Shown here: positions 4,531 to 58,041 of the stretch, one piece after another
Layout of the letters: the number at the start of each line of letters is the position of its first letter
Position numbering within the stretch: the first letter of the stretch is position 1
Origin: Lunularia cruciata
Taxonomy: Eukaryota > Streptophyta > Marchantiopsida > Lunulariales > Lunulariaceae
Direction of reading: 5' to 3'
DNA length: 64,000 nucleotides
NCBI GenBank assembly: GCA_948567375.1
Contig: OX419756.1
Span: forward strand, 60,898,333-60,962,332
The notes under the pieces: generated by a model
The model's input: only the letters and a program-made list of their open reading frames with translations
What the model was told of the DNA's origin: nothing
The model's database searches: none
Position numbers and translations under genes: made by a program

Positions 4531-7453
4531 CCATCCCCAAGAATTGGCGTAACTTTGTCAAGCTTGAAGGGAATGGAAGGTCTGAGATTTTCCTCACCTT
4601 CTCAGGATCAAATGCTATTCCATCCTTGGAGATGATATGCCCCAAAAGTAGACCTTCTTCACATCCAAAAATGCACTTCTCTGGGTTGAGTGATGCATTT
4701 GCCTCATCCAAGCGTTGCAAGACTTTGATTAGGTGCTCAAAGTGCTCCTCCTTGCTCCCATAGACACAAAAGTCATCAATGAAATCTCTCACAAATTTCC
4801 CAATGAAAGGTTCAAATACCTTGTTCATGAACCGTTGGAATGTGGCTGGAGCATTGCAAAGCCCAAAAGGCATGACCTTGAAAGCGTAAGTTCCCCAAGG
4901 TGTGGTGAATGTGGTGAGTTGTTGATGCTCTGGTGCAATCTTGATTTGGTTATATCCACTATAACCATCTCCAAAACTGTACCTCTCATGACCTACAACC
5001 TCCTCCAAGATCTCATCAATGAATGGCAATGGGTAGTAGTCCTTCTTGGTAACAGCATTGAGCTTCTTGTAATCCACACATACCCGAAGCTTGCCATTCT
5101 TTTTCTTCACAATGACAATTGGAGACACCCATTCTGAATTCTCCACCTCAAAGATAAATCTAGCCTCCTTGAGCTTATCAATCTCCTCCTTCACAACCAA
5201 AGATATTGGTGGGTTAATGCGACGTTGCTTTTGGCGGATTGGTCTTGCATGTGACTCCACCTCTATCTTGTGCTCCTCCAAGGTGACTTCCTTCAAATCC
5301 TTGTAACTAAAAGCAAACACATGGATGAACTTGCGGAAAATCTCCTCAAATCTCACCTTCTCCTCCTTGGTAACATTTGGGCCATACTTGAGGGTAGATA
5401 ACCTTCTCTCTACCTCCTCAAGTGTCAATGGTGATTTATCTGGGTCCTTCAAAACCTCTGGCTTAGGTGCAAAATCCATAGCACACAAAGGATACACATC
5501 TGAATCAGATTCAGACTCATCCTCCTCCGTGGAAGTCTCCTCTTCCATGCTTGTGTCCACACCTGAAGCTCTTTCTTCAGAATCTGATTCCCAATAATCA
5601 GAAGATGGTGTATCTGAATGTGAAGTGTTGGTGGTGTTAGTCACAGGAATAGTGACTCTATGGTTTGATGGCCCAATCCTCAAGAACCCTTTGTGCCATC
5701 GATCAGTTGTGCATGCTGCTCTCAACCATGGCCTCCCAAGAAGTAAGTCATAGCTTGAATCCTTCAAGACTTGGAAAGTCATGAGATTTTGAACTCCCAT
5801 AATTGAAACTACCACCTTATCCATCACCCCTACTGGTCGAACTTGTTGCTTGTTTGCCATGCTCACCACATATGTTGAAGCTCTTGAGGGTATCATACCT
5901 AACTTCTTCATCAACCTTTCTGACATGGCATTTACTGCTGATCCTCCATCAACCAATGCATCCTTGATGTTGCGACCATTCACTCTCACATCAATCTTGG
6001 AGGCATATTCACAAGCCTCCCATGGTGTTGGCTTGGCATCCACCACCCCCATTGATACTGGAACTTTTGCCTTCTTCTTCTTCTTGCTCCTTGTAGAACT
6101 CAAACCACCTCTAAGCTCCTTTCTCAAGGTAGGGTTCAAAGCAATTAATTGGCGCACTGTGATGTTAGCCTTGTGACTACCAACATCCTCCAACACATTG
6201 TAGTTCCATTGCTGCTTTGAGATCAAGAAGTCCTCCATCCCCAACTTCTTCCTTGGAGTCTTTGTTGTTGATGGTGTTGAGGTGCGAGTGCTCCTAGTAG
6301 ACATAGGAGTATCCTTGCTTGAAGTAAATCCTTGAGAAGAGTGAACATCCTCTGCAAAACCAGCTCTCTTCTTCTCTTGTGCCAAAAGCTCCAAATTAAG
6401 ACCCTTGGAGTTTGAGCACTCTCCCTTCTCATACTTGCTCTCAACCACATCTATGGATGCTATCCCCTTACCTTTGTTGGGATTAGGAGCCACTTGGGTT
6501 TCACTACCTCCCTCTTTCCCTCTATTGGCTCCCTCATAACCCCTTCCTCCATGGTAAGTGGAATTTGGGCAATTCCTTTGGATATGGCCTCTTCCTCCAC
6601 AACCAAAACAATTTCTATCATTGAAATTGTTGGCTGGTTGGCCTCCTCTATATGGATAGTTTCCATAACTCCTAGGCCATCTCCCTACATTCTGATCCAC
6701 CTCTCTCTTCTCCCATAGTTGCACCACATTGATCTTGAGATCCGCAAGTTGTTCTGTGATGGTTTGGAGTGGATCTTTTGGTGGAGGTGCAAGAACTGGA
6801 GCAACTACTACTTGTGGTGCAACCCTTGTCACCAAAGTATCAGAAGTTCCACCATACTTGTAGCCTTGAGGAGGATGCACAACCTCCTTCACCACCAAAT
6901 CACTCTCATCCCCTTCCAAACTCTCCTCCATACGAATTGCAATCTTGATAGCTTCAACCTTGGAAGAAAGTTTCTCATATCTCACCTTACTTCTAATTTG
7001 TGGTCTCAACCCTCCCACAAAATTCTTGGTGAGCATGGCCCCTATGCCAATCATTGTAGTCTCCACATCATCCCCACCCTTCCTCAACACTATGCAAAAT
7101 CTGGACTCTAACTTTTCCACTCTTTCCACATATACTCTCACTTTCTCTCCATCTCCTTGCTTGAGAAATGTAACCTCACTCATCAATCTCTCATAACTCT
7201 CATCAGGAAGAAAGTTTTCAATGAGTGCTGAAGTCAAAGTCTCCCAAGACTCCTCTTCCCCCTCTCTCCTCTCTCTCTTTTGGTATTCTGACTCATACCA
7301 TGTAAGTGCTGCATCCTCAAAGAAATCTGGTAATAATGAGGCCCACTCATTCTTCCTCCTCTCATTGTTTCCTATGCAAGCTCTCTTGAAGTCTCTCACA
7401 AAGGCCTCCACATCTTCTCCATCCTTGCCAAAGAAAACCGGAAGTTTCCCCAT
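4406..7453 (-). CDS. Element B1 gag, protease and reverse transcriptase part
   Basis: This frame starts at MGKLPVFFG with a retrotransposon gag (capsid) domain over about the first 190 residues (AALTWYE, FLPDESYE). A CCHC zinc knuckle (CFGCGGRGHIQRNC) follows near residue 285. An aspartic-protease-like fold sits near residues 500-590 (ALVDGGSAVNAM, LLLGRPWL), then a long acidic linker, then reverse transcriptase (VCVDYKKLN, MPFGLCNAPATF, FIDDF) to about residue 990. It is the structural and replication polyprotein of B1. The start fits the first methionine before the conserved gag domain and follows a leader of about 1.5 kb holding two other small reading frames. Confidence 0.9.
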   Translation of the reverse strand: MGKLPVFFGKDGEDVEAFVRDFKRACIGNNERRKNEWASLLPDFFEDAALTWYESEYQKRERREGEEESWETLTSALIENFLPDESYERLMSEVTFLKQGDGEKVRVYVERVEKLESRFCIVLRKGGDDVETTMIGIGAMLTKNFVGGLRPQIRSKVRYEKLSSKVEAIKIAIRMEESLEGDESDLVVKEVVHPPQGYKYGGTSDTLVTRVAPQVVVAPVLAPPPKDPLQTITEQLADLKINVVQLWEKREVDQNVGRWPRSYGNYPYRGGQPANNFNDRNCFGCGGRGHIQRNCPNSTYHGGRGYEGANRGKEGGSETQVAPNPNKGKGIASIDVVESKYEKGECSNSKGLNLELLAQEKKRAGFAEDVHSSQGFTSSKDTPMSTRSTRTSTPSTTKTPRKKLGMEDFLISKQQWNYNVLEDVGSHKANITVRQLIALNPTLRKELRGGLSSTRSKKKKKAKVPVSMGVVDAKPTPWEACEYASKIDVRVNGRNIKDALVDGGSAVNAMSERLMKKLGMIPSRASTYVVSMANKQQVRPVGVMDKVVVSIMGVQNLMTFQVLKDSSYDLLLGRPWLRAACTTDRWHKGFLRIGPSNHRVTIPVTNTTNTSHSDTPSSDYWESDSEERASGVDTSMEEETSTEEDESESDSDVYPLCAMDFAPKPEVLKDPDKSPLTLEEVERRLSTLKYGPNVTKEEKVRFEEIFRKFIHVFAFSYKDLKEVTLEEHKIEVESHARPIRQKQRRINPPISLVVKEEIDKLKEARFIFEVENSEWVSPIVIVKKKNGKLRVCVDYKKLNAVTKKDYYPLPFIDEILEEVVGHERYSFGDGYSGYNQIKIAPEHQQLTTFTTPWGTYAFKVMPFGLCNAPATFQRFMNKVFEPFIGKFVRDFIDDFCVYGSKEEHFEHLIKVLQRLDEANASLNPEKCIFGCEEGLLLGHIISKDGIAFDPEKVRKISDLPFPSSLTKLRQFLGMVGYYREVHLLIFQQGLCIDYLHEEGCRLHGDFGRQGGSQSF

Positions 7454-7689
7454 CTTAACTCCTCACTATCTTTCTTTTCTCTCAAATATTTTTTTTCTCT
7501 TTTCTTTTCTCTCACTCTATTACTAATAGAGTATATACATGACTAACACCATCTGAGAATAATCCACTCTAGGGAACACAAAAGGGTCAGGTTGCTCCAA
7601 GATTTCTTTAGCAACATCAAATCCTAGAGTGCATATTAATCTAACTCTCATGGATAGTTTATCCATAAGTTGAAAGATTATCTCCATCA

Positions 7690-8164
7690 CTAATCTTGAG
7701 AACTAGCTGATGAAGGTGGTAGTATTTCTGTAGCTGTACTAAGACTCTCTCCAAGATCTTTCACCAAAGTTTCCAAAAGTGCTTTTACTCCACTACACTC
7801 ATGTCCTTTTGGAAGTCCTTCAACTCCACAAACCTCACACAACTCCTTGGTCTTAGATCTTCTCCCTCCCAATCTTGGTGAAGAAGGTCCAACATGCAAA
7901 ACCCAAGTCAAGTAAGCCTCTCCTTTCCCTCAATCTCTTGCTCTCAAAGGTCAATGGACATGAACTTGCCTTATGTCCCTTCTCTCCACATAGAAAGCAC
8001 TTAGACTCACTCTTTCCTCCAAGTGGTGTAGGTTTTTGGATCCTCTCAATACTCTCTTCAAATTCTATTGTAAACTCTCTTTTCTTCAAATCAACCCCTA
8101 CAATCACCTCAAACCCTTGGGGAACCTTGTATAATCTCAATTTCCACTCTTGATGACCCTCCAT
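7690..8164 (-). CDS. Element B1 leader protein with CCHC zinc knuckle
   Basis: Between the primer-binding site and gag, B1 carries an extra coding region. Its N-terminal part (from 8164) starts MEGHQEWKLRLY and reaches a clear zinc knuckle, CFLCGEKGHKASSC, near 7990-7950. Further along, about 7820-7790, is a second cysteine/histidine cluster, CEVCGVEGLPKGHEC. The equivalent region of copy B2 (about 41460-41870) keeps the same knuckle (CFLCREKGHKARSC) and surrounding residues. A nucleic-acid-binding role is inferred only from the zinc knuckle. I do not recognise the family. It is separate from gag, which has its own knuckle. Confidence 0.6.
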
Positions 8165-8811
8165 GTTCCCAAGATGAATCTAAACACTCAAACATGCTTT
8201 TTGTTGATCTCAAACTTCTCATGCATGAGATCTCCACTCAGCAGAATTGACCCTTCCTCACAATGTCACTAAAATCTCCCAACCAATATGTCACAGTCCT
8301 CTGAAATTTTGCACACTTGATTACAACTCTAGGGCGTCCCTCCTTGCAAAATTTCAGATCTTTTCATTGAGCCATTTGGCTTAGACACCTTTCTATTCAG
8401 CACCCATATTTCAGATTTGGTCTGAAAACCACCCCCCTCACTTCAAAAACTCATAACGCCCTGCGCAAAAACAATCTCTCTCTAATTTTTGTAGCAGCAA
8501 GTAGAATACAATGCACTGAATTTTCTTGAAAATTTTCAGGACAATTCACTGAAAATAGAAGAAATGGCTGACTCTGTACAAGTTTCTAGAGAGCATGCAG
8601 TTGCGGGAGCAGTTTACCCTATTAACTTTCAAAAATTCTAGCCCAGTGCGCATAGAAGCTCTCATAATAATTTCAAGTGTGCTAACTAAAAGATAACCCA
8701 AACTATCATGTGTAGAAATCTCATGTCTAAATCTCAAACTTGAGATTTTGCCCAAAATCACCTTAATCCCCTAAATCTGCAATCCACCTCACACAATCTC
8801 TCCAATTCCTC
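8165..8811 (-). other. Element B1 untranslated leader
   Basis: This stretch between the two small leader reading frames shows no convincing coding signal. Its sequence is conserved in B2 (about 41900-42560), for example around the short tract near 8600-8760, but that can be explained by shared descent of the element. Packaging or translation-control signals would be expected in such a leader; none can be pinpointed by eye. Confidence 0.5.
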
Positions 8812-8982
8812 TCATGTGTACAAGATGTACAAAATCACCTCAAAGATATCATAATTAACTACAGGGTATACAAATGGATCTTGGTTCTCTAACATAAGTT
8901 CAGCACTCTCCTCTCCTAATGTTCTCTCCAAGTGAGCTCTCATAGCCTCCTTCTGCCTAATGTAGAATTGGACGCGGAACAT
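8812..8982 (-). CDS. Element B1 small leader ORF (56 aa), shared microprotein family
   Basis: About 20 bases inside the primer-binding site a 56-residue frame begins MFRVQFYIRQK and ends YILYT. An upstream in-frame extension would run back through the primer-binding site into the LTR, so the internal methionine at 8980-8982 is the likelier start. Copy B2 has the same protein (about 42598-42770). It aligns with two small leader proteins of the unrelated chromovirus C at 62588-63017. Shared features are a hydrophobic strand followed by arginine (YIR or YIQR), MR, an LGEE or FGAE motif, and a proline-rich hydrophobic end P-hhh-P-V-V-x-Y. Function unknown. Confidence 0.55.
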   Translation of the reverse strand: MFRVQFYIRQKEAMRAHLERTLGEESAELMLENQDPFVYPVVNYDIFEVILYILYT

Positions 8983-9002
8983 TATCTTGCCTTCTAGAGA
9001 GG

Positions 9003-9019
9003 TCCCGGCAACGGAACCA
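9003..9019 (-). promoter_or_regulatory. Primer-binding site of element B1, tRNA-Asp-like
   Basis: Four bases inside the 5' LTR the minus strand reads TGGTTCCGTTGCCGGGA. This resembles the TGGCGCCGTTGCCGGGGA site that many plant Tat/Athila-type Ty3 elements use to pair with the 3' end of tRNA-Asp, with a few differences. It marks 9024-9700 as the 5' LTR and fixes the element's orientation. Confidence 0.7.
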
Positions 9020-9023
9020 AAAA

Positions 9024-9700
9024 TGTGAGCCGGCCTGTCTCTCACTCAAGATGAACCTCCGATGGCTATTATGGTAGCGCACCATGGACTAAGAAGGCAA
9101 GGAACCCCAACTCCATCATACTCCTCCAAGGCTAACACTCCAAGACTCAAGACATTGCTCACTAGAGAACTCAATGAGAGAGATAGTTGCAAATGAAAGG
9201 ATGATGAGTACCTCCTCACCCCTTGTTTATATACTTGTGAAATAGTTACGTACCAAAGTTACTAATTACCATAATAACTCAAGTTACTAGACTAAAAGTC
9301 AAGTAAAGTCAAAAAGTAGAAAGGAATATCCATTCACATGGGCATATTCCCCTTATCTTGACCCAACCACTAAAGCAAGGATTCCTTCACATGGGCTATC
9401 CTTGGACTAAAGAAGAATCCAAAACAAAAAGGCTTGCGGGCCCAAGAGTTCTCAACTCTTTCCCCAAAGCCAAACACCTAGGAATAATACCAAGTCAACA
9501 CACTAAAATCCAAAATAGTGGTGCTCATCTTTTCTACTTCCTCTAAAGTAAGGTCCCATCTATCTTAGCTATGACTAACTTTAGCTAACCATGACTAATA
9601 TAGAACCATCCTTTATCTCTATATAAATAATATCTCTTAAATACTTGTAATACCAAGCTAAATATCACAATACCACACACATGCACAAATGGGTGTTACA
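9024..9700 (-). repeat. 5' LTR of element B1
   Basis: This is the partner of the LTR at 1901-2577, with the same 677-bp length and the same TGTGAGCC and TGTTACA ends on the plus strand. The adjacent primer-binding site at 9003-9019 identifies it as the 5' LTR of a minus-strand element. Immediately to its right, sequence of element A's pol resumes. Confidence 0.95.
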
Positions 9701-16573: not shown

Positions 16574-16577
16574 TAGG
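16574..16577 (+). other. Left target-site duplication of element E (TAGG)
   Basis: TAGG precedes the first base of element E and recurs at 26510-26513 directly after its last base. Joining the two flanks with a single TAGG restores continuous A-type LTR sequence, which supports these being the true insertion boundaries. Confidence 0.75.
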
Positions 16578-17022
16578 TGTCACGCCATTTGTAGTTCCGC
16601 ATCTAGATGCTCGGACACTGGAGTTCCAGTGATGGTAGTTAGAGTTATTCTAGCTGTTTCTCAGGGACTACTTTCCGACGGTTAGATTTTGTGTTCGGGG
16701 TACTGACTTCACGGTGGGGCCCACCGTCACTTTGCACCGTTTGCACCGTCGAGTGTGCCGTCAGCGGGACCATTAGGGTTTCAGGGCTAGCTCGAGTCCA
16801 AGGGGTATAGTTTCGAAGTGAGCTCCAGAGAGCTCACTTCTCTGATGTTGAGCCTTCGAGTTCCTGGCTATGGTGGACAGAGGCCGGCGAGCGTCACCTG
16901 GATTCTCTATGCTTGAGTGGGTGTGGCTTGACTGTAATCAGTGCCCAGTTGTTGGCAGTTTATAGAGTGACAGATCAAGTACTGATCTGAGTTGAGTTGA
17001 GTTGAAAGTGTTAAGCAATCTG
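16578..17022 (+). repeat. Left terminal repeat of element E (segment B)
   Basis: This 445-bp segment, from TGTCACGCC to AAGCAATCTG, recurs at 25955-26399 with about six differences. The right-hand copy is flanked on both sides by a 105-bp segment that is absent here, so the left end is not a plain full LTR. The sequence after it (ATTACATCAGAGAAG) weakly resembles a tRNA-Met primer-binding site. Confidence 0.85.
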
Positions 17023-17424
17023 ATTACATCAGAGAAGTGAAGTCAAGGGGAAATCGGGTGCAGGAACGTTGAGTGTTGGTGGTATCTCCAAGCTCGGTGG
17101 ATCGTGGTAGCTCGATTCAGGTTCTATGTTTCCCTAGTGTGCAGAAGCTCGTGTAGTTGATGCAAATTTGGCAGTTAGGCGGACGGTGTGCGGAAGCGCT
17201 GGCCAAATTTTGAGCAAAGAAGGAGCAATTTTCGAGCAGTGTTGTGATTTTGAGCTCAGGAGGTGAAGGCAGAACCAATTTGCTGCGAGTTGGGCTCAGA
17301 AAGTGAAATTGAAGGTGGAGTTGGAAAGCTCTTCTCATGAAATTGTGATTTAGAAAAACCCGTTTTGTCAATTTGGCTCGAGTGGAAAGTTAGCGGGGGA
17401 TTTGGCGGACATCCATCTTTAGGG

Positions 17425-17834: not shown

Positions 17835-18331
17835 TTGTTGTCATAGTGACTGTGCCACTGTTATCTATACACATGTAGCTTTGGCTAGGAGAGGCAGTTT
17901 GATCCCATTCTTGGTGATCCTGGTAGCTTAGGACTTAGATACGAACTACTCTTATGTCAAATGCCAAATGGTGGCAGAGTCAGTCCCGTGTTGTGTTATG
18001 AGATGGAGGGTTTTCATTTAGATTTCTTGTGATTGGATCCCCTCCATTCTCTGCTTCCTGTTTGTGCACCACGTTTGTGTGAGGTGCCTTGACTTTTGAG
18101 CGTTGGTGCTCTGGTGTGCTCTCGGTGGTGAGGCTGGAGTGATGACCAGTCAGACTACCTTTGTTTCTCTCCGGTGAGGTAGGAAGTGATGACCTGCAGA
18201 CCGTGAGAGTGCATGTTATGATGGCAGGTTACAGGTTGCCCTTCCCCTAGTGTAGTTATCTCGGTTAGAGTTACATTAGTGGGTGGTGTCTAGTTGGTGT
18301 TGGCACTTGGTGGGGCACTTGCAGTTGCGAC

Positions 18332-20017
18332 TTGCGGTTGCAGTTGGTGGTTCGGGTTTGCTGTTGCAGTTACGTGGTCACGACGGAGTTCTTTGGAGAT
18401 TCCAGAGGAGTTAGCCCTACAGTACGCAGTGGGTTTGCTCGGAGTGGTACTCGGTATCAGCCTGTATCTCAGGTCCCAGTGAGGGAGGAGATTGACTCTG
18501 AGTTGGAGTTCGACACAGGAGCTGATTCAGTTGAGAGTGCACTTGGTGTGTCCGCACCGTTGTTGTGGGACATGGACGAGATTTATGGGGCCTCCAAAGG
18601 CCCTAGGCGTTACTCTGGTACAGTGGGTACCATTGAGTTGGATGACTTCATCCAGGAGTTCGATAGTTGGTGTGATCTGCAGCAGATGCGGAACCCGACT
18701 TTGTTCACACCCTTCATGGCATGGAAGGGGTTGTTTCAGCACTTGGAGGGTCCACCAATGGACGACTACCATGAGTTCAGGAGAGCTCATTTGGAGGAGA
18801 TTGAGTTATGGAGACAGTATTGGTCTCCACACTATGTCTCCATCACTTCAGGTTCGGTGGCCATGAGTAGGTCGGCTGTACCTACGAGTTCTAGCTCGAG
18901 TAGTGTTGGTGGAGCTAGTGGAGGTGCACTAGCTGGAGATAGTGCTACTACGAGTGGAGGTACCACTGCAGGAGGTGGTGTGGTACCGGGGTTTAACCCC
19001 ATGGTTGAGTTCTTCCTATGTTTGAGGCAGAACTACCAGGGACTGCGGACTGACAAGCTGAGGAGCTTGCAGGAGTTCCAGCGGAAGGCTGGAGAGAGCC
19101 TACGCGAGGCATACACTCGCATGAGGCGGCTGATCAGTTTCACTCAGGGAGTTACTGAGGCCCAGGCAGTCCAGTTTTGGTATGGGATACTGGACAGGGA
19201 GTTGCGACGTAGAGTTTGTGATGCTACGTTGTTGCAGGCTACTTCGCCCACTTTGGCAGTAGTCTTTGGTTTGGCTGAGCGTATTGAGCTCAACATGGTG
19301 GAGGAGAGAGTGGTGACAGCTGGATTTGGTAGAGAGACCTCATCCACGGTTGTGACTTCTTCTAGAGTGCAGCAGAGTGCACCACGCCCAGTTGGTTTTC
19401 GAGGACAGGGTGGACAGCCCAGATCCTATGGAGCGAGTGGAGGACCTAGTGGAGTTAGACCCTTACCCTCATTTTCGGGTCAGCAGCAGCCAGTGAGTGG
19501 TGGTGTTGCTTGTTGGACTTGTGGTGGACCTCACCATAGGAGAGAGTGTACTCAGGGCAGCGGACCTGATACCTCTGGTGCATCACAGCCAGCACAGAGG
19601 CAGTGTGAGCACTGCCACAGATTTGGTCACACTAGTGACCGGTGTTTTGACCTACACCCGGAGTTACGGAGTGGTAGGGCTGCTATGGCAGGTAGTAGAG
19701 GAGCTCCAGTTCATGGAGGACGAGGTGGTAGAGGTGGTGGTAGAGGATCTACACCTAGTAGGGGTGCGGTACCCGCCCTTACTTTTGACACATCTATGGC
19801 TACTCGGATTGAGCAGTTGGAGCAGAGATTGGCTAGTATGGCTATTGCTCAAAGGAGATCAGATTCGGGTGCTGAGGCTTCCACCTCATATGCTGGTGAT
19901 AGAGATGCTTTGGACTTCATGTGCGGAGCAGCACAGGTGGATGCATCTGCAGCAGTGACTAGGAGTGCAGTACGTGCTCCAGAGCCTAGAGGAGCATCAA
20001 TGGAGTTGGACCCATAG
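18332..20017 (+). CDS. Element E gag with two CCHC zinc knuckles
   Basis: This frame encodes the structural protein of element E. The retrotransposon gag (capsid) domain covers roughly residues 90-330 (ELDDFIQEFDSW, MAWKGLFQHLEG, REAYTRMRRLI, WYGILDRELRRRV). A glycine/serine-rich linker separates an N-terminal subregion from the main capsid part. Two zinc knuckles follow: CWTCGGPHHRREC near residue 392 and CEHCHRFGHTSDRC near residue 424. An RGG-rich nucleic-acid-binding tail comes next. The exact start is uncertain because the first 50 residues look poorly conserved. The twin knuckles are distinct from the single knuckles in B1 and C. Confidence 0.85.
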   Translation: MRLQLVVRVCCCSYVVTTEFFGDSRGVSPTVRSGFARSGTRYQPVSQVPVREEIDSELEFDTGADSVESALGVSAPLLWDMDEIYGASKGPRRYSGTVGTIELDDFIQEFDSWCDLQQMRNPTLFTPFMAWKGLFQHLEGPPMDDYHEFRRAHLEEIELWRQYWSPHYVSITSGSVAMSRSAVPTSSSSSSVGGASGGALAGDSATTSGGTTAGGGVVPGFNPMVEFFLCLRQNYQGLRTDKLRSLQEFQRKAGESLREAYTRMRRLISFTQGVTEAQAVQFWYGILDRELRRRVCDATLLQATSPTLAVVFGLAERIELNMVEERVVTAGFGRETSSTVVTSSRVQQSAPRPVGFRGQGGQPRSYGASGGPSGVRPLPSFSGQQQPVSGGVACWTCGGPHHRRECTQGSGPDTSGASQPAQRQCEHCHRFGHTSDRCFDLHPELRSGRAAMAGSRGAPVHGGRGGRGGGRGSTPSRGAVPALTFDTSMATRIEQLEQRLASMAIAQRRSDSGAEASTSYAGDRDALDFMCGAAQVDASAAVTRSAVRAPEPRGASMELDP

Positions 20018-20074: not shown

Positions 20075-21260
20075 TTGCAGACGACATCCATGGTTCCTAG
20101 ATGTCCAAGTGCAGGTGTGGTAGGTGGTGATGGAGTACCTGATGGAGTACCTGCTAGTCAGCCACCTGCTACTACACAGACTGAGTCTAGCATGATGTTG
20201 GGGGCGGCTCAGCTGATTATGCGGCATCCTTTATTTTCAGCCAGTGACATGTTTACATTAGGAGTTGACCCAGCCCCAGTGTTCCGGTTGGCTGCCACGT
20301 TGTGTGAGAGTAGGGATGGTGCAGTTCCTACTACTAGAGCAGAGGTGGTTGGTAGTGGAGCTGACTTGGTTGAGGAGCATGGGATCCGTTCAGCGACCAA
20401 TGGTTTATGGCAGGCAGCAACGGCTAGACTGGAGGAGTTGCCAGCTAGACCGGCCTTTGAGAGAGCGCGGTTTACACCTGGTGTTGTCCTATTGGATAAC
20501 CAGAGGGGGATCTTTCGTTTGGTAGGACCTTCAAGGAAGGTCTATACACCACAGAGAGTCTTGTTAGACTCTGGTGCGCAGCCTCTTATGTTGGGGAAGG
20601 CTGCAGTTGTTGGTCTGGAGTTACGGAAGACCGATGTGGAGAGGTGTCCATTTCAGATCCAGACATCTCTTGGTGGTGGTTCGACACAATACATCACACG
20701 TGGAGAGCTTGTTGTCCAGGTTCAGCCTGGTCATCCGACTGATAGCTCGGTGGTGAGAGCTCAGGCTATTGCGACGATAGCTGAGTCCTATGATGTGCTA
20801 GTTGGGGGAGCAGTGTTATACCCTATGGGTTTCAGTATTGACTATTGGGAGGAGATAGCCTCTTATAGACATGGTTGGCAGTCTGGTGAGGGACGGGTAT
20901 GTCGCCTACCAGTACGCTTTAGTAGTGGCAGTCTTGGCTCACTACAGTCCGGGACCATGGCAACATCAGTTTTGGCTTTCAGCGGTGCAGTTACTTGGCC
21001 TGGTGACTTGTTGGAGGGGAACGCCCATGCAGAGGATACTCCAGTACCAGAGGAGATCACTCGGCTATGGAGTACGAGTGGGATTGTTCCATCCACCTTG
21101 GATGTTCCATTGTGGAGTTCAGAGGAGGCATTGCAGCAGCATGCAGATCAGTTGGTGCAGCAGGCTTGGAGTGGAGCCTTCGTACCATCAGGGGATGAGT
21201 GTGAGGATGAGCCTCCAGAGGCGATTGCTTTGACACCTCTGGATACCACACTCATTGCTT
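20075..21260 (+). CDS. Element E aspartic protease region
   Basis: This part of the polyprotein contains a retropepsin-like core with the catalytic LLDSGAQPLMLG near 20560-20600. The conserved hydrophobic segment YDVLVGGAVLYPMGF lies near 20790-20835, with WEEIASYRHGW shortly after. The protease would cut the element's polyproteins. About 130 further residues without a recognised domain link it to the methyltransferase region. The first 150 residues also have no recognised domain. Confidence 0.75.
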
Positions 21261-21269: not shown

Positions 21270-22240
21270 CAGTAGAGGGGATATGTCTATTAGAGTTGTT
21301 TGGTGGGATCAGCACCGGACTAGCTGCGGTGTTACAGGCGGGTATCCGAGTACAGAGGTACTTGTATGTAGAGAGAGATGAGACTGCTAGGCGAGTCTCT
21401 CTACATCATGTGGCACACTTGGCCTATTGGTATCCGGAGTTATTACCGATGTCAGCAGTCAGAGGTTACCAGAAGGCCTTACCATGAGACATTTCCTTAT
21501 TGGGGGCGCATGACCTAGAGAGACATGGGCCTATTCACTTGGTGATTTCTGGATGGCCATGTCAGGGACATACACGTGCGGGCCGCGGTTTGGGTCTTCA
21601 GGATCCTCGTTCTGGTGTGTTTTGGGAGATGTTACGGATACTACGACATCTCCAGGTTCATCAGTCTGTTTCTCCAGCTTACCTTTTGGAGAACATTCCA
21701 TTGATGGGTGATTCTCGCACTAGAGTGGTGGCGAGTACACATCAGGTCCATTCTTAGATGGGACCTGCTGTATTGTTAGATGCAGCCAGAGTGGGATCAC
21801 GGGCTCATCGTCTTTGTCTTTGGTGGACGAACCTTTTACCCAGAGAGGTTCTACAGCGTAGTTATGATGGGATTCAGCGACTAGACCACATTCTTGTTGA
21901 TGATATCTTGGATGCTGGACGTCAGTCTCAGACAGTGGTAGTGGCTGATAGGTCACCTATGGCAGTGGTGAACCTAGTTGGACAGCCTAGAGCTGCATTT
22001 CCCACACTCATGAGTTTCCCAGGCTCTCATGCTTTTTGAGAGGGAGGACCTGGACTTGTTTGGGACTCATAGTTACAGCAGTTGGTGGAGCCCAATGCTG
22101 ATGAGAGAGAGCGGGTGATGGGTTTTTGCACCGGTATTACCGCTGTTCCAGCAGTGTCAGAGGCATCCAGGCGTCAGGTGTTAGGTCAGGCTATGGACCT
22201 GAACTGTTTGACCTGGATTGTGAGCCTTGGTTTGGCAGAG
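21270..22240 (+). pseudogene. Element E C5 cytosine methyltransferase domain, DNMT3-like order
   Basis: Between protease and RT lie the ordered landmarks of a C5 DNA methyltransferase. Motif I (LELFGGISTGLAAVLQAGI, about 21285-21340) would bind S-adenosylmethionine. VERDETARRV follows near 21370. Motif IV contains the catalytic Pro-Cys in SGWPCQGHTRAGRG near 21550-21590. Motif VI reads YLLENIPLMGD near 21680-21710. A motif VIII-like stretch (VLLDAARVGSRAHR, then WWTNLLP) is near 21770-21840, and a motif IX-X-like end (ERERVMGF, SEASRRQVLGQAMDL) near 22105-22200. The order I to X is canonical, as in DNMT3, and not circularly permuted as in plant DRM enzymes. The region spans about 320 residues, the normal domain size. 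It is mildly broken. Captured retroelement methyltransferases have been reported in a few algae and protists. Confidence 0.8.
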
Positions 22241-22672
22241 CAGCGTAGGATGCGCTTGATAGGCATCACCACTCGGACACTTGTGAGCCTTGTGCCTATC
22301 GAGACGATTCAGGCACATGCTGGGGGCGATGGACCGAGTGGACATGGTATTCTTGGGACACATCCAGTAGCTACTAGGGAGAGTGGTCTACTTGGAGTCC
22401 ATCTAGGTGAGCGTGGGCTACTTGGATTACACCCTTGGTCCACATGGGATGCAGCCAGAGGACGTATGGAGCTTGCAGCCAGAGTGGAGGGAGTTTTTCA
22501 CACAGAGGTTGGGACCTCTAGTGGTCGGGAGCATGACACCATTGCTCCCAAGGGCCCAGTGTAGCAGCCAGTCAGTACGTCTTCCACTCCTACTACAGTT
22601 ACAGAGGATACTTGGGAGCCAGATCTTGGACCCAAGCTTACTGGAGAGGAAAGACGGAGGGTTTGGAGGTTC

Positions 22673-25333
22673 TTGAGGAGTCACACGAGTTGTTTTGCCT
22701 TTAGTATGAAGGATTTGGGTGCTCTGAAGGGACCTGGTATACGGATTGAGCTGACTAGCGACACACCTGTTTTCCGACGTCCCTATCAATATAGTGAGAT
22801 GGAGAGGACATTGATTCAGAGCCGGAGTAGTGACCTTTTTGAGGTTGGTTTGGTGGAGATTTCACATGGAGAGTATGCATCAGCGACAGTGATGCCAGCC
22901 AAGAAGGATATGCATGGCAACTATACAGATAGGCGGATGTATGGAGATTACCGTCCTATCAACCGACAGACCAGGGCTGATCGGTATGCCATGCCTACAC
23001 CGGAGGAGATTTTTGATGCGATTGGGCATGCAAAGGTCTTCAGTACTTTGGATCTTCGAGCGGGATATCATCAGTTGCCGATCAGGGAGGAAGATAAGTC
23101 CAAGATAGCATTTTGGGCTATTGATCCTCACGGCAAGGATGTGTTATATCAGAGGAGATTCTTACCATTTGGGTTGAAGAATGCTCCTGCTGAGTTCCAG
23201 AGGGTCATGGATAGGATCCTAGCTGGACTGGATTTTGCTCGGTGCTATATTGATGACATTTTGGTGTATAGCACTACTGTGGAGGAGCATGAGAGACAAT
23301 TGTTGGAGGTGTTTGAGAGGTTGAGATCTCATGGACTCAAATTACATCCTGGGAAGTGTAGGTTCTTCCATGAGCAGGTTGAGTATTTGGGTCACACTAT
23401 CTACCCCGGAGGACTTGGTGTTCAGCAGACCAAGGTAGAGGCTATTGCACGTATTCCTCGGCCTACGGATGTGAGCAGAGTGCGAGCATTCCTTGGGTTG
23501 GCGAACTTCTATCGCCGCTATGTTAGAGGATTTAGTGCCATTGCCAAGGCCTTGACGAAGCTGACCAAGCTTACACAGGAGTGGTGTTGGGGAGATGAGC
23601 AGGAGAGAGCTTTTGTAGAGCTCAAGGAGAGGTTGACATCTGCTCCTATTTTGAGGAGACCGATCAGGGGACGACCATTTCAGGTTCACACTGATTGGAG
23701 TATGTTGGGGCTTGGAGCGGTGCTCACCCAACATGATGATGAGGAGAAGGAGTTTGTGGTGGCCTATGCTAGTCGCTCCAACAATTCAGCGGAGGCGAAG
23801 TATAGTTCATATGAGGGAGAGTGCTTGGCAGCAGTTTGGGCAGTAGCACATTTCCGATGTTACCTATTTGGTAACCCCTTCACTCTCATCACTGATCATC
23901 AGCCGCTGAAGTGGTTGATGGAGTCCGACAAGCTTTCAGGGAAGCTTGCACGATGGGCTCTGATTTTACACGAGTATGATTTCACGGTTGTTCACAGACC
24001 TGGAGTGGTGAACCGTGATGCAGATGGGTTGAGTAGAAACCCATGTCCCAGCCAGCAGGATCAGACCGGAGCACGTTGGCATGGTGAGACAGATGAGGAG
24101 ATGGTGCCAGGTTGGCATGCATCGGCCTTTCTGTGTATATTTGTAGAGACTTTGGTGGTATCTCTCTCAGTGCATACAGGAGGAGTTATTGAGGTCACAG
24201 ATCCAGAGAGTGAAGATATTGGTACAGTTCAGCGAGACATTCATGATGATGTCTTAGTGATGGACTATCTTCGCACTGGTGTTGTGGGTGGCACAGTTGG
24301 GGCCAAGGAGAGAGACCGTGTTCTTCAGCGAGCCAGACGGTTCAGATTGGAGGGTAGACACCTTTTGCGTGTATGGGAGGATGGTAGAGTGCGAGTAGTA
24401 CCACTTCCATCACAGAGACCACAGTTGGTCCGTCATGCTCATGAGGAGCTAGGACATTTTGGAGTAAAGCGTACATATAGCTTACTCCAGAGTCATTATT
24501 GGTGGCGCGGTATGCAGACCGAGGTACAGCAGTTTGTTGCCAGATGTGTGGTTTGTGACCGAGTTAGAGCATCATTCAATGCTCCTACGCCACAGTTACA
24601 CCCATTACCTATCATGGGATTGGGTTACCGTTGGAGTTTGGACTTTGCCGGACCTTTACCGCTGACTGTGAGACATCATCGTTATGTTTTGGTGATGGTG
24701 GAGCACTTCTCCAAGTGGATTGAGTTGGTGGCACTTCCTGACAAGTCTAGTGAAGGGACAGCTTACTCGTTCCTAGATCGAGTTCTTAGTCATTTTGGTG
24801 CACCAGCTGAGGTTTTGACTGATCAGGGTACAGAGTTCTTGGGAGAGTTTCAGGTCTTGTGTGACAAGGCTTTGATTGATCATCGTACTACATCCCGAGA
24901 TCACCCTGAGGCAGATGGCTTAGCAGAGAGAGTGGTTCAGACGGTGAAGAGAGGATTGCGAAAGTATGGTTTGCAGAGAGGCCACTTGGGAGATTGGGAT
25001 CTCCATTTATCTTGGTTGGCCATGGGCTATCGGTTCAGCCGGCAAGCCTCCTTAGCATCCTTCTCTCCATACTTTCTACTCTATGGACGAGATCCAGATT
25101 TACCTGCAGCCATTCGTCGAGATGCTACTGTAGTTTTGGACTTGGATGACCCTGATGTATGGATGAGCCCATGTTCTCAGCGGGCAGAGATCTTTCAGAG
25201 AGTGATGCCGATGGCCTTCGAGAACTTGGCGATTGCTCAGCATAGAGATACTTTACGCTATGCTACCATTCGAGGAGGAGGTTATAGACCCTCGATCCGT
25301 CGCTTTCATCCAGGCGACTATGTATATCTATAG
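22673..25333 (+). CDS. Element E reverse transcriptase, RNase H and integrase
   Basis: One long frame of about 886 residues carries the replication enzymes. Reverse transcriptase covers about residues 80-260 (YGDYRPINRQTRADRY, FSTLDLRAGYHQ, LPFGLKNAPAEFQ, YIDDILVYS with the catalytic Asp pair). RNase H covers about 340-460 (FQVHTDWS, YEGECLAAVWA, LITDHQPLKWL). The integrase zinc region (HEELGHFG to CVVC) lies near 600-640. The integrase core follows near 655-800 (WSLDFAGPLP, LTDQGTEF, HPEADGLAERVVQ with the catalytic Glu). The DDE integrase explains the target-site duplication. The frame appears intact along its length, so the element was active recently. Confidence 0.93.
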   Translation: MRSHTSCFAFSMKDLGALKGPGIRIELTSDTPVFRRPYQYSEMERTLIQSRSSDLFEVGLVEISHGEYASATVMPAKKDMHGNYTDRRMYGDYRPINRQTRADRYAMPTPEEIFDAIGHAKVFSTLDLRAGYHQLPIREEDKSKIAFWAIDPHGKDVLYQRRFLPFGLKNAPAEFQRVMDRILAGLDFARCYIDDILVYSTTVEEHERQLLEVFERLRSHGLKLHPGKCRFFHEQVEYLGHTIYPGGLGVQQTKVEAIARIPRPTDVSRVRAFLGLANFYRRYVRGFSAIAKALTKLTKLTQEWCWGDEQERAFVELKERLTSAPILRRPIRGRPFQVHTDWSMLGLGAVLTQHDDEEKEFVVAYASRSNNSAEAKYSSYEGECLAAVWAVAHFRCYLFGNPFTLITDHQPLKWLMESDKLSGKLARWALILHEYDFTVVHRPGVVNRDADGLSRNPCPSQQDQTGARWHGETDEEMVPGWHASAFLCIFVETLVVSLSVHTGGVIEVTDPESEDIGTVQRDIHDDVLVMDYLRTGVVGGTVGAKERDRVLQRARRFRLEGRHLLRVWEDGRVRVVPLPSQRPQLVRHAHEELGHFGVKRTYSLLQSHYWWRGMQTEVQQFVARCVVCDRVRASFNAPTPQLHPLPIMGLGYRWSLDFAGPLPLTVRHHRYVLVMVEHFSKWIELVALPDKSSEGTAYSFLDRVLSHFGAPAEVLTDQGTEFLGEFQVLCDKALIDHRTTSRDHPEADGLAERVVQTVKRGLRKYGLQRGHLGDWDLHLSWLAMGYRFSRQASLASFSPYFLLYGRDPDLPAAIRRDATVVLDLDDPDVWMSPCSQRAEIFQRVMPMAFENLAIAQHRDTLRYATIRGGGYRPSIRRFHPGDYVYL

Positions 25334-25378: not shown

Positions 25379-25678
25379 TTGAGAGTGCGCGAGGTTTTGC
25401 CATCTGGAGTCCTTGTGTTAGAAGGACGTGATGGTGTTGTTTGGAAGGATCATGTACGCAATTGTGCGCCATGCCACCTCCCAAACATTGATGGTACTAT
25501 GGACCCAAGCTTGGCACTTGTACGTGCAGGCTTGAGGTGTATGTTATGTGGCTCTTCTGGTGGAGCTGCTACTATGTTAGTGTGTGATAGTTGTTCGAGA
25601 GGATGGCATATGGCATGTATGACTCCTCCCCTCACGGTGGTTCCTCAGGGACAGTGGTTATGTCCTAGATGTACTTGA
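25379..25678 (+). CDS. Element E PHD finger, C-terminal module
   Basis: A 99-residue frame after integrase ends with a C4HC3 zinc finger: CMLC, an 11-residue loop, CDSC, SRGWH, MAC, then LCPRC. The WH before the histidine-linked cysteine and the tryptophan (QW) two residues before the last cysteine pair are hallmarks of PHD fingers, which read histone H3 tails, often at lysine 4. The upstream 45 residues (VREVLPSGVLVLEG) resemble a small beta-rich integrase C-terminal tail. A role in steering integration by chromatin state is inference. A PHD finger in a Ty3 element has, as I recall, a precedent in the Chlamydomonas element REM1. Confidence 0.85.
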   Translation: MRVREVLPSGVLVLEGRDGVVWKDHVRNCAPCHLPNIDGTMDPSLALVRAGLRCMLCGSSGGAATMLVCDSCSRGWHMACMTPPLTVVPQGQWLCPRCT

Positions 25679-25847
25679 CCTATAGCTAGTTCATTCTTTA
25701 TATGGTATAGATTGCAGACAGGTGACTAACGATGGGGCTCCATAGCACCCGGCCTCCTGATCTTTGCCCATTAGAGGGTATACTATATACTTAGAGTAGA
25801 TGGCTATCTGGAGTTAGAGGGACCTAACCGCCAGCTAGGGGGGCGAT
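25679..25847 (+). other. 3' untranslated part and polypurine tract of element E
   Basis: After the PHD frame a short non-coding stretch ends in the purine run AGGGGGGCGA (25837-25846), the likely primer for plus-strand synthesis. It abuts TGTGGCAC at 25848, which would then be the start of the 3' LTR in the conventional reading. Confidence 0.6.
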
Positions 25848-26509
25848 TGTGGCACTTTAGAGTCTATGTATGACTTATGTGTGAGTTGTGCTTTTATAGT
25901 GTATGATGTTGACAGCGATGTATGTTGTGTAGCGATGTATATACGCACAACAGCTGTCATGCCATTTGTAGTTCCGCATCTAGATGCTCGGACACTGGAG
26001 TTCCAGTGATGGTAGTTAGAGTTATTCTAGCTGTTTCTCAGGGACTACTTTCCGACGGTTAGATTTCGTGTTCGGGGTACTGACTTCACGGTGGGGCCCA
26101 CCGTCACTTTGCACCGTTTGCACCGTCGAGTGTGCCGTCAGCGGGACCGTTAGGGTTTCAGGGCTAGCTCGAGTCCAGGGGGTATAGTTTTGAAGTGAGC
26201 TCCAGAGAGCTCACTTCTCTGATGTTGAGCCTTCGAGTTCCTGGCTATGGTGGACAGAGGCCGGCGAGCGTCACCTAGATTCTCTATGCTTGAGTGGGTG
26301 TGGCTTGACTGTAATCAGTGCCCAGTTGTTGGCAGTTTATAGAGTGACAGATCAAGTACTGATCTGAGTTGAGTTGAGTTGAAAGTGTTAAGCAATCTGT
26401 TTATTGTGGCACTTTAGAGTCTATGTATGACTTATGTGTGAGTTGTGCTTTTATAGTGTATGATGTTGACAGCGATGTATGTTGTGTAGCGATGTATATA
26501 CGCACGACA
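25848..26509 (+). repeat. Compound right end of element E (segments A-B-A)
   Basis: Three blocks follow the polypurine tract: A1 (25848-25952, 105 bp), a GC dinucleotide, B2 (25955-26399, 445 bp), a TTTAT spacer, and A2 (26405-26509, 105 bp). A1 and A2 differ at one position; B2 matches the left end B1 (16578-17022) with about six differences. The whole element therefore reads B ... A-B-A, the split-direct-repeat topology. The outer ends are TGTC on the left and GACA on the right, flanked by TAGG on both sides. The A1/B2 joint contains the palindrome ACAGCTGT. Confidence 0.85.
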
Positions 26510-26513
26510 TAGG
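26510..26513 (+). other. Right target-site duplication of element E (TAGG)
   Basis: TAGG follows the last base of element E and equals the bases at 16574-16577. The minus-strand A-type LTR sequence continues from here. Confidence 0.75.
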
Positions 26514-38290: not shown

Positions 38291-41200
38291 CAAGGAATCA
38301 AAGCTTGAAGGGGATGGAAGGTCTGAGATTTTCCTCACCTTCTTAGGATCAATTGCTATTCCATCCTTGGAGATGATGTGCTGCAAGAGTAGACCTTCTT
38401 CACATCCAAAAATACACTTCTCTTGGTTGAGTGATACATTTGCCTCATCCAAGCATTGCAAGACCTTGATTAGGTGTTCAAAGTGCTACTCCTTACTCCC
38501 ATAGACACAAAAGTCATCAATGAAGTCTCTCACAAATTTCCCAAGGAAAGGTTCAAATATCTTGTTCATGAACCATTGGAATGTGACTGGAGTATTGCAA
38601 AGCCCAAAAGGCATGACCTTGAAAGAGTAAGTTCCCTAAGGTGTGGTGAATGTGGTGAGTTGTTGATGCTCTAGTGCAATCTTGATTTGGTTATATCCAC
38701 TATAACCATCTCCAAAATTGTACATCTCATGACTTGTAACCTCCTCTAAGATCTCATCAATGAATGGCAATGGGTAGTAGTCCTTCTTGGTAACAACGTT
38801 GAGCTTCTTGTAATCCACACATACTCAAAGCTTGCCATTCTTTTTCTTCACAATGAAATTTGGAGACACCCATTTTGAATTCTCCACCTCAAAGATAAAT
38901 CCAGCCTCCTTGAACTTATCAATCCCCTCCTTCACAACCAAAGATATTGGTGGGCTAATGCAACATTGTGTTTGGCGGATTGGTCTTGCATGTGACTCCA
39001 GCTCTATCTTGTGCTCCTCCAAGGTGACTTCCTTCAAATCCTTGTAACTAAAAGCAAACACATGGATGAACTTGCAGAAAATCTCCTCAAATCTTACCTT
39101 CTCCTCCTTGGTAACATTTGGGCCATACTTGAGGGTAGATAACCTCCTCTTTATCTCTCAAGTGTCAATGGTGATTTATTTGGGTCCTTCAAAACCTTTG
39201 GCTTAGGTGCAAAATCCATAGCACACAAGGGATACACATCTAAATCATATTCAAATTCATCCTCCTCCGTGGAATCTCCTCTTCCATGCTTGTGTCCACA
39301 CTTGAAGCTCCTTCTTCAGAATCTGATTCCCAATAATCAAAAGATAGTGTATTTGAATGTGAAGTGTTGGTGGTGTTAGTCATGGGAACTATGATTCTAT
39401 GGTTTGATAGCCCAATCCTCAATTACCCTTTGTGCCATTGATCAGTTGTGTGTGATGCTCTCAACCATGGCCTCCCAAGAAGTAAATCATAGCTTGAATC
39501 TTTCAAGACTTGGAAAGTCATGAGATTTTGAACTCCCATAACTAAAACTATCACTTTATCCATCATCCCTATTGGTGAAACTTGTTATTTGTTTTTCCAT
39601 GCTCACCACAAATGTTGAAGGTCTGGAAGGTATCATACCCAACTTCTTCATCAACCTTTCTAACATGGCATTCATTGTTGATCAACCAATGCATCCTTGA
39701 TGTTGTGACCATTCACTCTCACATCTTGGAGGTATATTCACAAGCCTCCCATACTGCTGGCTTGGCATCCATCATCCCCATTGATACTTGAGCTTTTGCC
39801 TTCTTCTTCCTCTTGCTCCTTGTAGAACTCAAACCACCTCTAAGCTCCTTTCTCAAGGTGGGGTTCAAAGCAATTAATTGGCCTATTGTGATGTTAGCCT
39901 TGTGACTACCAACATCCTCCAAGACATTGTAGTTCCATTGTTGCTTTGAGATCAAGAAGTCTTCCAACCCCAACTTCTTCCTTGGAGTATTTGTTGTTGA
40001 TGGTGTTGAAGTGCTTGTGCGAGTGCTCCTAGTAGGCATAAGAGTATCTTGGCTAGGAGTAAATCATTGAGAAGAGTGCACATCCTCTGCAAAATGAGCT
40101 CTCTTCTTCTCTTGTGCCAAAAACTCCAAATTAAGACCCTTGGAGTTTGAGCACTCTCTCTTCTCATGCTTGCTCTCAACCACATCTATGGATGCTATTC
40201 CTTGACTTTTTTTGGATTAGGAGCCACTTGGGTTTCACTACCTCCCTCTTTCCCTCTATTGGCTCCCTCATAACCTCTTCCTCCATGGTAAATGGAATTT
40301 GGGCAACTCCTTTTGATATGGCCTCTTCCTCTACCACCAAAACAATTTTTATCATTGAAATTGTTGGCTGATTGGCCTCCTCTATATGGATAGTTTCCAT
40401 AACTCCTAGACCTTCTTCCTACATTTTGATCCACCTCTCTCTTCTCCCATAGTTGCACTACATTGATCTTGAGATCTATAAGTTGTTTTGTGATGGTTTG
40501 AAGTGGATCTTTTGGTGGAGGTGCAAGAATTGGAGCAGCTACTACTTGTGGTGCAACCCATGCCACCAAAGTATCAGAAGTTCCCCCATACTTGTAGCCT
40601 TGAGGAGGATGCACAATGTCTTTCACCACCAAGTCACTCTTATCTCCTTCCAAACTCTCCTCCAAAAAAAATTACAATCTTGATAGCTTCAACCTTGGAA
40701 GAAGGTTTCTCATATCTCACCTTGCTTCTAGTTTGTGGTCTCAACCCTCCCATAAAATTCTTGGTGAGCATAGCTCCTATGCTAATCATAGTAGTCTCCA
40801 TATCATCCTCACCCTTCTTCAACACAATGAAAAATTAGGACTCTAACTTCTCCACTCTTTCCACATAGACTTTCACTTTATCTCCATCTCCTTGCTTGAG
40901 AAAGGTAACCTCACTCATCAATCTCTCATAACTCTCATCTGGAAGAAAGTTCTCAATGAGTGTTGAAGTCAAACTCTCCCAAGACTCTTCTTGCTCATCT
41001 CTCCTCTCTCTCTTTTTGGTATTCTGACTCATACCATGTAAGTGTTGCATCCTCAAAGAAATCTGGTAATAATGAGACCCACTCATTCTTCCTCCTGTCC
41101 TTTTTTTCTATGCAAGCTCTCTTGAAGGCTCTTATAAAGGCCTCCACATCTTCTCCATCCTTGCCAAAGAAAACTGGAAGTTTTCTTATCTTAATCCCTC

Positions 41201-43436
41201 ACTATCTTTCTTTTCTCTCAATTTTTCATTTTCTCTTTTATTTTCTCTCACTCTTTCACTAATAGAGTATGTACATGACTAACATCATTTGAGAGTTATC
41301 CACCCTAGGGAACACAAAAGGTTAAGGTTGCTCCGAGATTTCTATAACAACATCAAATCCTAGAGTGCATATTAATCAAACCTCATGGATAGTTTATCTA
41401 TAAGTTGAAAAATTATCTCTATTACTAATCTTGAGAAATGGTTGATTAAGGTGGTAGTATTTCTATATCTGTACTAAGACTCTCTCCAAGATCCTTCACC
41501 AAAGTCTCCAAAAGTGCTTTTACTCCACTACACTCATGTCCTTTTGGAAGTCCTTCAACTCCACAAACCTCACACAACTCCTTGGTCTTAGATCTTCTCC
41601 CTCCCAATCTGGTGAAGAAGGTCCAATATGCAAACCCAAGTCAAGTAATCCTCTCCTTTCCCTCAATCTCTTGCTCTCAATGATCAATGGACATGATCTT
41701 GCCTTATGTCCCTTCTCTCTACATAAAAAGCACTTAGACTCATGTGATCCTTCCTCCAAGTGGTGTAGGTTTTTGGATCCTCTCAACACTCTCTTCAAAT
41801 TCTATTCTAAACTCTCTTTTCCTCAAATCTACCCCTACAATCACCTCAAACCCTTGGGGAAACTTGTATAGTCTCAATTTCCACTCTTGATGATCCTCAT
41901 GTTCCCAAGATGAAACTTAACACTCATACATGCTTTTTGTTGCTCTCAAACTCATGCATGAGATCTCAACTCTGTAGAATTGACCCTTCCTCACAATATC
42001 ACTCAAATCTCTCAACTGGTAAGTCACACTTCTCTGAAATTTTGCACACTTGATCAAAACTTCAAGGCATCTATCCTTGAAAAATTTCAGATCTTTTCAT
42101 CAAGCTATTTGGCCTAGAAACATCTCTATTCAGTACACATATTTCAGATTTGGTTTGAAAACCAGCCCCTCACTTTAAAAACTCATAACTCTTTGAGCAA
42201 GAATGATCTCTCTCTAATTTTTGTGTCAACAGGTACAATACAATGTATTGAATTTTCTTGGAAATTTTCGGAAAAATTGACTTAAGATTGAAGAAATGAC
42301 AAACTCTACACAATTTTCTAGAGAGCATGCAGTTACGGGAGCAATTTACCCTATCAACTTTCAAAAATTCTAACCCAATGCGCATAGTAGCTCTCACAAT
42401 AATTCCAAGTGTGGTAACTGAAAGAGAACCCAAAATATCATGTGTAGAAATTTCAAGTCCAGATCTCAAACTTGAAATTTGCCCAAAAATCACCTTAACC
42501 CCGAAAATCTGCAATCCATCTCAAACAATCTCTCCAAATCCTCTCAAGTATACAAGATGTACAAATTCACCTCAAAGACATCATAATGAATTAGAGTTTA
42601 TACAAATAGGTCCAAGTTCTCTAACATAAGTTCAGCCTTCTCCTCCCCTAAAGTTCTCTCCAAGTGAGCTCTCATAGCCTCCTTCTGTCTAATATAAAAT
42701 TGTACACGGAACATTATCTTGCCTTCTAGAGAGGTCCTAGCACGGAACCAAAAATGTGAGCCAGCCTGTCTCTCACTCAAGATGAACGTTTGATGGCTAG
42801 TATGGTAGCACACCATGGACCAAGAAGGCAAGAAATCCCAACTCCATCATATTCTTCCAAGGCTAACACTCCAAGACTCAAAACATTGCTCACTAGAGAA
42901 CTCAATGAGAAAGAGATAGTTGTAAATGAAAGGATGATGAGTACATCATCACCCCGAGTTTATATACTTATAAAATAGTTATGCACCAAAGTTACTAATG
43001 ACTTGAGTAACTCAAGTTACTAGGCTAAAAGTCAAGTAAAGTCAAAAAGCATAAAGGAATATCCATCCACATGGGCATATTCCGCTAAGCATGTGATCTT
43101 ATCTTGACCCAACCACTAAGTCAAGGATTCCTTCACATGGGCTATCCTTGGACTCCAAAACAAAAAGGCATGCGGGCCCAAGAGTTTTCAACTCTTTCCT
43201 CAAAGCCAAACACCTACAAATAATACCAAGTCAACACACTAGAATCCAAAATAGTGGTGCTTATCTTTTCCACTTCCTCTGAAGTAAACTCTCCTCTATC
43301 TTAGCTATGAATAAATTTAGCTATTCATGACTAATGTAGAACCATCCTTTATCTCTATATAAATAATATCTCTCAAGTACTTGTAATACTAAGATAAATA
43401 TCATAATACCACACACATGCACAAATGGGTGTTATA
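38290..43436 (-). mobile_element. Element B2, 5' half of an older copy of B1
   Basis: This minus-strand copy matches B1 from the 5' LTR through the leader, gag, protease and the first part of RT. Gag landmarks include the knuckle region near 40340 and AALTWYE-like sequence near 41060; RT landmarks are IDYKKLN-like sequence near 38810 and EKCIFGCEEGLLL near 38420. It stops inside RT at about 38290. The rest of pol and its 3' LTR are absent, replaced by element D in the same orientation. It is more diverged than B1, with many breaks. Its right edge lies in LINE copy L1. Confidence 0.85.
42755..43436 (-). repeat. 5' LTR of element B2
   Basis: This 682-bp repeat begins TGTGAGCCAG and ends GTGTTATA on the plus strand, aligning over its whole length with the B1 LTRs but with many substitutions. 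A primer-binding-site remnant similar to that of B1 precedes it at about 42735-42750. LINE sequence begins immediately after it. Confidence 0.85.
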
Positions 43437-58026: not shown

Positions 58027-58041
58027 GACTTCCCTCCTTTT
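58027..58041 (-). promoter_or_regulatory. Polypurine tract of element C
   Basis: The minus strand reads AAAAGGAGGGAAGTC immediately before the 3' LTR, the expected primer for plus-strand DNA synthesis. Confidence 0.8.

Follow-up and report, generated by a model that had tools for sequence, protein, structure and literature searches.

The window, a stretch of 64,000 nucleotides of the liverwort Lunularia cruciata, contains a young, multi-copy Ty3-type LTR retrotransposon that carries a cytosine methyltransferase (MTase) domain between its protease and its reverse transcriptase (RT), and a PHD finger after its integrase. The order RT, RNase H, integrase and the DDE integrase itself, both features of Ty3/Gypsy elements, are present. 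The parts of the element are listed below with their strands.

16574..16577 (no strand): left 4-bp target duplication TAGG, from repeat-end comparison
16578..17026 (+): repeat A1, the left terminal repeat, beginning TGTC; 98.4% identity to A2 (442/449)
18269..20014 (+): Gag region, an open frame with CCHC motifs recognised by eye; Retrotrans_gag match weak (0.037) and below the cut-off
20495..20929 (+): protease region with a DSGA motif, matching relatives that carry Pfam Asp_protease_2 (P0139)
21272..22258 (+): DNMT3-type cytosine-5 methyltransferase domain with four in-frame stops in the window copy, from profile, sequence and fold
22562..22570 (+): conserved TAG CAGCCA of the type I readthrough form (UAG CARYYA), in 34/34 host copies
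22925..23401 (+): RT (RVT_1), from Pfam
23588..23977 (+): RNase H, from Pfam
24410..24907 (+): integrase, zinc-binding domain and DDE core, from Pfam (rve)
25538..25672 (+): PHD finger 3' of the integrase (PF00628, E 7.5e-12)
25846..25952 (+): repeat B1, with a G-rich polypurine-like tract just before it, from repeat comparison
25955..26402 (+): repeat A2, from repeat comparison
26403..26509 (+): repeat B2, the right end, ending GACA, from repeat comparison
26510..26513 (no strand): right 4-bp target duplication TAGG, from repeat-end comparison

A Pfam search of the window piece gave no protease match over 20495..20929. The window copy is broken by in-frame stops at 20015, 21485, 21755, 22037, 22070 and 25331, besides which its frame has a family-wide stop at 22562 and its end at 25676. 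The TAG at 20015, which follows the Gag region, is missing from several other copies, and open copies have sense codons at those stop sites that were inspected by eye. Elsewhere in the window, another Ty3 element is present at 4560-9698 and again at 38301-43434, the two being 90% identical and very low in CpG (observed/expected ratio 0.08), and a chromovirus-looking Ty3 element with a C-terminus that appears chromodomain-like by eye occupies 58040-62575 on the minus strand. Reverse-transcriptase-like open frames are found at 44847-46034 and 55470-57381, together with repeats at 57287-58024 and 63156-63898 that are 97.6% identical. Two likely pieces of host genes were recognised by eye, one mTERF-like (46643-47839, plus strand) and one tetraspanin-like (52732-53313, minus strand).

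The MTase domain at 21272-22258 is complete. Motif I is followed by motifs IV, VI and IX-X in one frame, which is the canonical order, and a DRM-type domain is ruled out by the lack of rearrangement. The closest known enzymes are DNMT3A and DNMT3B, both by sequence and by predicted fold. A first-pass annotation, made from the letters of the window, had proposed a DNMT3-like rather than DRM-like cytosine MTase in canonical order between the protease and RT of a Ty3 element, and had named a profile search as the check; that search gave significant MTase matches, and the comparisons of sequence and fold bear out both the type of the domain and the order of its motifs.

The domain belongs to the element family and not to one copy. 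In a search of the host assembly (565.8 Mb, 74 contigs) with the DNA of the MTase region, all 40 of the 40 scored matches, the window copy included, are at least 98% identical (from 5507 first-look candidates) and are spread across large contigs. A genome search with PF00145 gave 123 scored matches from 2161 candidates, of which at least four are host methyltransferase genes. Thirty copies with 1.5 kb flanks and four loci from the Pfam search were examined, and the order protease, MTase, RT is found in 34/34. The survey of other copies that the first-pass annotation had called for places the domain at the same point in all 34 loci examined. The alternative that a piece of a host DNMT3 gene was inserted once into a single Ty3 copy has the resemblance to DNMT3 in its favor and nothing else; the 40/40 near-identical matches, the 34/34 loci and the separate clade of the element MTases described below rule it out, to which relatives in other species and the absence of introns may be added, and its probability is close to nil.

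The 366-codon MTase region is free of stops in 9 of the 30 copies, four of which are also open across 500 codons upstream, and stops other than the equivalent of 22562 are scattered among the copies. In seven copies, the identity between repeats A1 and A2 is 97.3 to 99.1%, which indicates young insertions, as had been claimed at first reading. The L. cruciata genome is described as 580-581 Mb in size and expanded through Ty3/Gypsy bursts in the relevant part of PMC9985172. One copy, at C12:3.77 Mb (L050/L051), is inserted within the B repeat of another copy of the same element.

Among the young copies, the singletons of the MTase plus linker are nonsynonymous in 124 cases, synonymous in 40 and stops in 9; for C-to-T and G-to-A changes the neutral expectation is 510 to 188, which is close to what is observed. 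Variants common to at least three copies are few: 10 nonsynonymous, 4 stop and 7 synonymous in the MTase plus linker, 11, 2 and 12 in RT, and 4, 2 and 10 in the protease, respectively. At these small counts, no greater constraint is apparent on the MTase than on the protease or RT of the young copies.

The repeats of the element are arranged as A1-coding-B1-A2-B2. A1 at the left and A2-B2 at the right are found in 7/7 copies, and B1 precedes A2 in the six copies for which the fetched stretch reached B1. The ends are TGTC...GACA, flanked by 4-bp target duplications, in all seven (TAGG, ACTC, AGGA, ACAT, CCTC, ATGA and TGTC). The repeats are therefore split, in place of the two plain long terminal repeats usual at the ends of Ty3/Gypsy elements, and correspond to the DIRS-like A-coding-B-A-B pattern described for KnitGypsy-Dnmt3 of the alga Klebsormidium nitens. 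Inspection by eye of the stretch behind A1 revealed no canonical primer-binding site. A DIRS element is ruled out by the rve integrase and by the target duplications in 7/7 copies; DIRS elements leave no target duplication according to the account in PMC3266345. Reverse transcription would yield B-A repeats, and a circle with two of these may be opened by the integrase at its inner B-A junction. A tie between split repeats and methyltransferases was also considered, and the link is not clean because Ngaro and Viper elements, as treated in that account, lack an MT domain (PMC3266345).

The TAG at 22562 closes the frame that holds Gag, protease and MTase, and RT lies downstream in the same frame. 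The letters at this point are TAG CAGCCA in 34/34 host copies, and a distant relative, L042, has TAG CAATCA at the corresponding point, where both the letters and the flanking protein differ from those of the host copies. UAG CARYYA is given as the type I readthrough signal of tobamoviruses in the part of PMC5382211 concerned, and both UAG CAGCCA and UAG CAAUCA fit it. Because a conserved stop after the MTase fits this signal, the MTase is probably made with Gag, at the level of Gag, and RT, integrase and PHD finger at a lower level. A minority of ribosomes would read through the UAG, giving abundant Gag-protease-MTase and scarce RT-RNase H-integrase-PHD product. Several long metagenome proteins stop 60 to 180 residues past the MTase, which fits this layout, although contig ends could also truncate them. 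In 15 relatives, however, MTase and RT are within one predicted protein. Nine of these are gene models, eight of Riccia, Marchantia and Sphagnum and one of Closterium, which may reflect splicing across a stop; the other six are from metagenome sequence, which argues that expression on the Gag side is not general.

The PHD finger is also present 3' of the integrase in L042 (PF00628, 4.3e-10). The match in P0171 is weak and below the cut-off; in P0166 of Closterium a short stretch aligns, but Pfam gives no PHD match. The finger may steer the integrase to chromatin. Chromoviruses are Ty3 elements with a chromodomain at the C-terminus of the integrase, and thus likewise have a chromatin-reader module behind the integrase; the liverwort element has a PHD finger where these have the chromodomain, and carries the MTase in addition.

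A protein search with the MTase domain gave 140 relatives at E <= 1e-3, of which the best 120 were listed, and one with a longer open stretch gave at least 60 at the same threshold. The hosts named among the matches listed are Calypogeia fissa, Marchantia polymorpha, Riccia sorocarpa, four Sphagnum species, and Closterium sp. NIES-53 and NIES-54. Among these listed matches no vascular plant is named, transposon proteins often being masked in annotation, and neither search lists a match under the name K. nitens. The MTase follows the protease in most relatives long enough to judge. Two metagenome proteins have other orders, RT-RNase H-MTase-integrase in P0162 and RT-RNase H-MTase in P0163, so the domain has either changed place inside the element or been captured again. 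L042 (CADCWO010000201.1, 1-9285) is a Gag-protease-MTase / RT-RNase H-integrase-PHD element with an MTase about half identical to that of the host element. It occupies a 9,285-base contig, identical at its ends over 127 bases, of a cyanobacterial metagenome-assembled genome (MAG), and is most likely eukaryotic contamination there; P0023, from a bacterial MAG labelled Candidatus Obscuribacterales, probably has the same explanation. A scan of viral_contigs with P0019 confirmed no relative, and L043, a phage-like methyltransferase of 31% identity from a second scan, was set aside.

An MTase tree was built from 63 rows (37 element MTases, 15 plant DNMT3 and 11 others), with animal and K. nitens rows absent. 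The 37 element MTases form one clade with support of 100/100, and the 15 plant DNMT3 rows form a separate one with 100/98, so that there is no support for a recent origin of the domain from the DNMT3 gene of the host. The join of the two against the 11 other rows is weak (79/96, with a long element stem of 1.78 changes per column and no animal rows). In an RT tree, 12 RTs of MTase-bearing elements were set against those of two other Ty3 elements of the window and form one clade with support of 99/98; the groups are those of the MTase tree, namely liverwort, L042, P0159/P0161 and P0162/P0163. The branching of the two trees fits a single capture followed by joint descent, and horizontal transfer of the element among hosts is possible. 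The named bryophyte and Closterium relatives, in a single clade, suggest one old lineage across streptophytes.

Host methyltransferase genes were found on C7 (L001, L039) and C1 (L004, L002), among them two DNMT3-like genes, one of these with a DUF3444-like C-terminal exon, and one DRM gene with rearranged motif order. The host DNMT3 gene L039 shares 65% identity with its counterpart in Marchantia paleacea and 63% with MpDNMT3b of M. polymorpha, more than with those of Riccia, Calypogeia, mosses and ferns. This supports the land-plant host supposed in the first-pass annotation and makes a thalloid liverwort likely.

The explanation that we favor, and consider probable though by no means assured, is that the MTase methylates the element's own new DNA before or at integration. 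The enzyme is predicted to be made and packaged together with Gag and would act in the particle or the nucleus on double-stranded, perhaps circular, copies. With the methyl mark, new copies could be taken for methylated DNA already resident in the genome, or could be shielded against host attack. A comparison of 435 pairs of copies gives 5.9 transitions per transversion; the transitions are concentrated at CG and CHG (enriched 2.85-fold and 1.84-fold) and poor at CHH (0.41-fold), which is the footprint of methylated copies. An older Ty3 pair in the window that has no MTase shows the same bias (CG 3.80-fold, CHG 2.84-fold, CHH 0.82-fold). Host enzymes can therefore explain the footprint, which indicates that the copies are methylated and not by whom, and it was rejected as evidence for self-methylation.

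Alternatively, the MTase may act mainly on the host, altering chromatin at integration sites or genome-wide or restraining the spread of the element, in which case the marking of new copies would be irrelevant. The DNMT3-like fold is compatible with such a role, as is a readthrough product that contains both integrase and PHD finger, and de Mendoza et al. also discuss, in the passages concerned, integration-site chromatin and slowed retrotransposition (PMC5890265). However, because of the UAG, the MTase goes with Gag and protease and is separate from integrase and PHD finger in the product without readthrough, an arrangement that a particle-borne enzyme fits better; the host-acting role is considered unlikely.

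The MTase may also be enzymatically weak or lost and be retained for a structural, RNA-binding or dimerising role within the Gag polyprotein. The KnitGypsy enzyme gave no methylation in yeast, a result that its authors call inconclusive (de Mendoza et al. 2018, PMC5890265, in the relevant part), and the long stem of the element clade points in the same direction, as does the occurrence of the GWPCQ pattern in only 54 of 70 extracted rows, a set that takes in decayed copies and gene models. Against this, the catalytic motifs are still recognisable in relatives of as low as about 38% identity, and in an alignment of 32 relatives the motif IV Cys stands in one of the columns that hardly vary (90% or more). 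This reading appears distinctly improbable.

The kind of element is already known from KnitGypsy-Dnmt3 of K. nitens (2018), and the statement in the first-pass annotation that retroelements with captured methyltransferases occur in a charophyte alga and in dinoflagellates is correct, the elements being those of K. nitens and Symbiodinium (PMC5890265, in part). KnitGypsy-Dnmt3, compared here by its description, likewise has Gypsy-type domains, a DNMT3-type MTase without the DRM rearrangement, and the A-coding-B-A-B repeats of DIRS elements. Its MTase is described as within the Pol polyprotein frame, whereas in the liverwort element the UAG, present in 34/34 host copies and in L042, separates MTase from RT; the part of the description available mentions no PHD finger, target duplication or readthrough (PMC5890265), and its host is an alga and not a liverwort. 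SymbioDIRS-Dnmt3 and SymbioLINE-Dnmt of Symbiodinium are also retrotransposons with cytosine methyltransferases, and the SymbioDIRS-Dnmt3 enzymes methylate CG in yeast according to the same portion of that paper (PMC5890265). DIRS elements, however, rely on a tyrosine recombinase, and LTRs are absent from LINEs, whereas the liverwort element has a DDE integrase and 4-bp target duplications.

PAT-like elements share the split direct repeats. The methyltransferase domain that DIRS1-like elements possess is of unknown function according to the part of PMC3266345 concerned and Dam-like according to de Mendoza et al. (PMC5890265, likewise in part); both groups differ from the liverwort element in their tyrosine recombinase and lack of target duplication (PMC3266345). 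The plant DNMT3 genes of Yaari et al. (2019, PMC6453930, in the part concerned) have the same DNMT3-type domain in canonical motif order and are host genes with DUF3444, which make up a clade distinct from that of the element enzymes. A passage of PMC12344493 mentions that streptophyte and dinoflagellate retrotransposons contain DNMT3, citing the 2018 paper. In the openly licensed literature no paper was found that names a DNMT3-bearing Ty3 element in a bryophyte, and term searches within PMC9516144, PMC8616336, PMC13182070 and PMC8282616 returned nothing on such elements. As far as this literature shows, the bryophyte range, the probable UAG readthrough on the Gag side, the PHD finger, and the combination of split repeats with integrase-type insertion are new.

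More tentatively, and with considerable doubt, the element may represent a streptophyte lineage older than land plants in which a DNMT3-type writer dosed with Gag and a PHD reader fused to the integrase serve to methylate a free DNA circle that the DDE integrase opens inside the repeat. If so, new copies that acquire 5-methylcytosine on the free circle would resemble resident DNA from the moment of integration, and the recurrence of methyltransferases in elements with unusual, circle-making repeats (DIRS, SymbioDIRS and the liverwort element) would be explained by a requirement for marking such circles.

Cytosine methylation is the main weapon of plants against transposons, yet this transposon family, which multiplied recently, has a DNMT3-type writer of its own. 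The likely readthrough stop that would set the enzyme dose to the level of Gag, the PHD finger on the integrase, and the DIRS-like repeats with integrase-type insertion are concrete handles on this family, and its relatives in Marchantia, a laboratory model, make it testable what advantage methylating DNA brings to a transposon.
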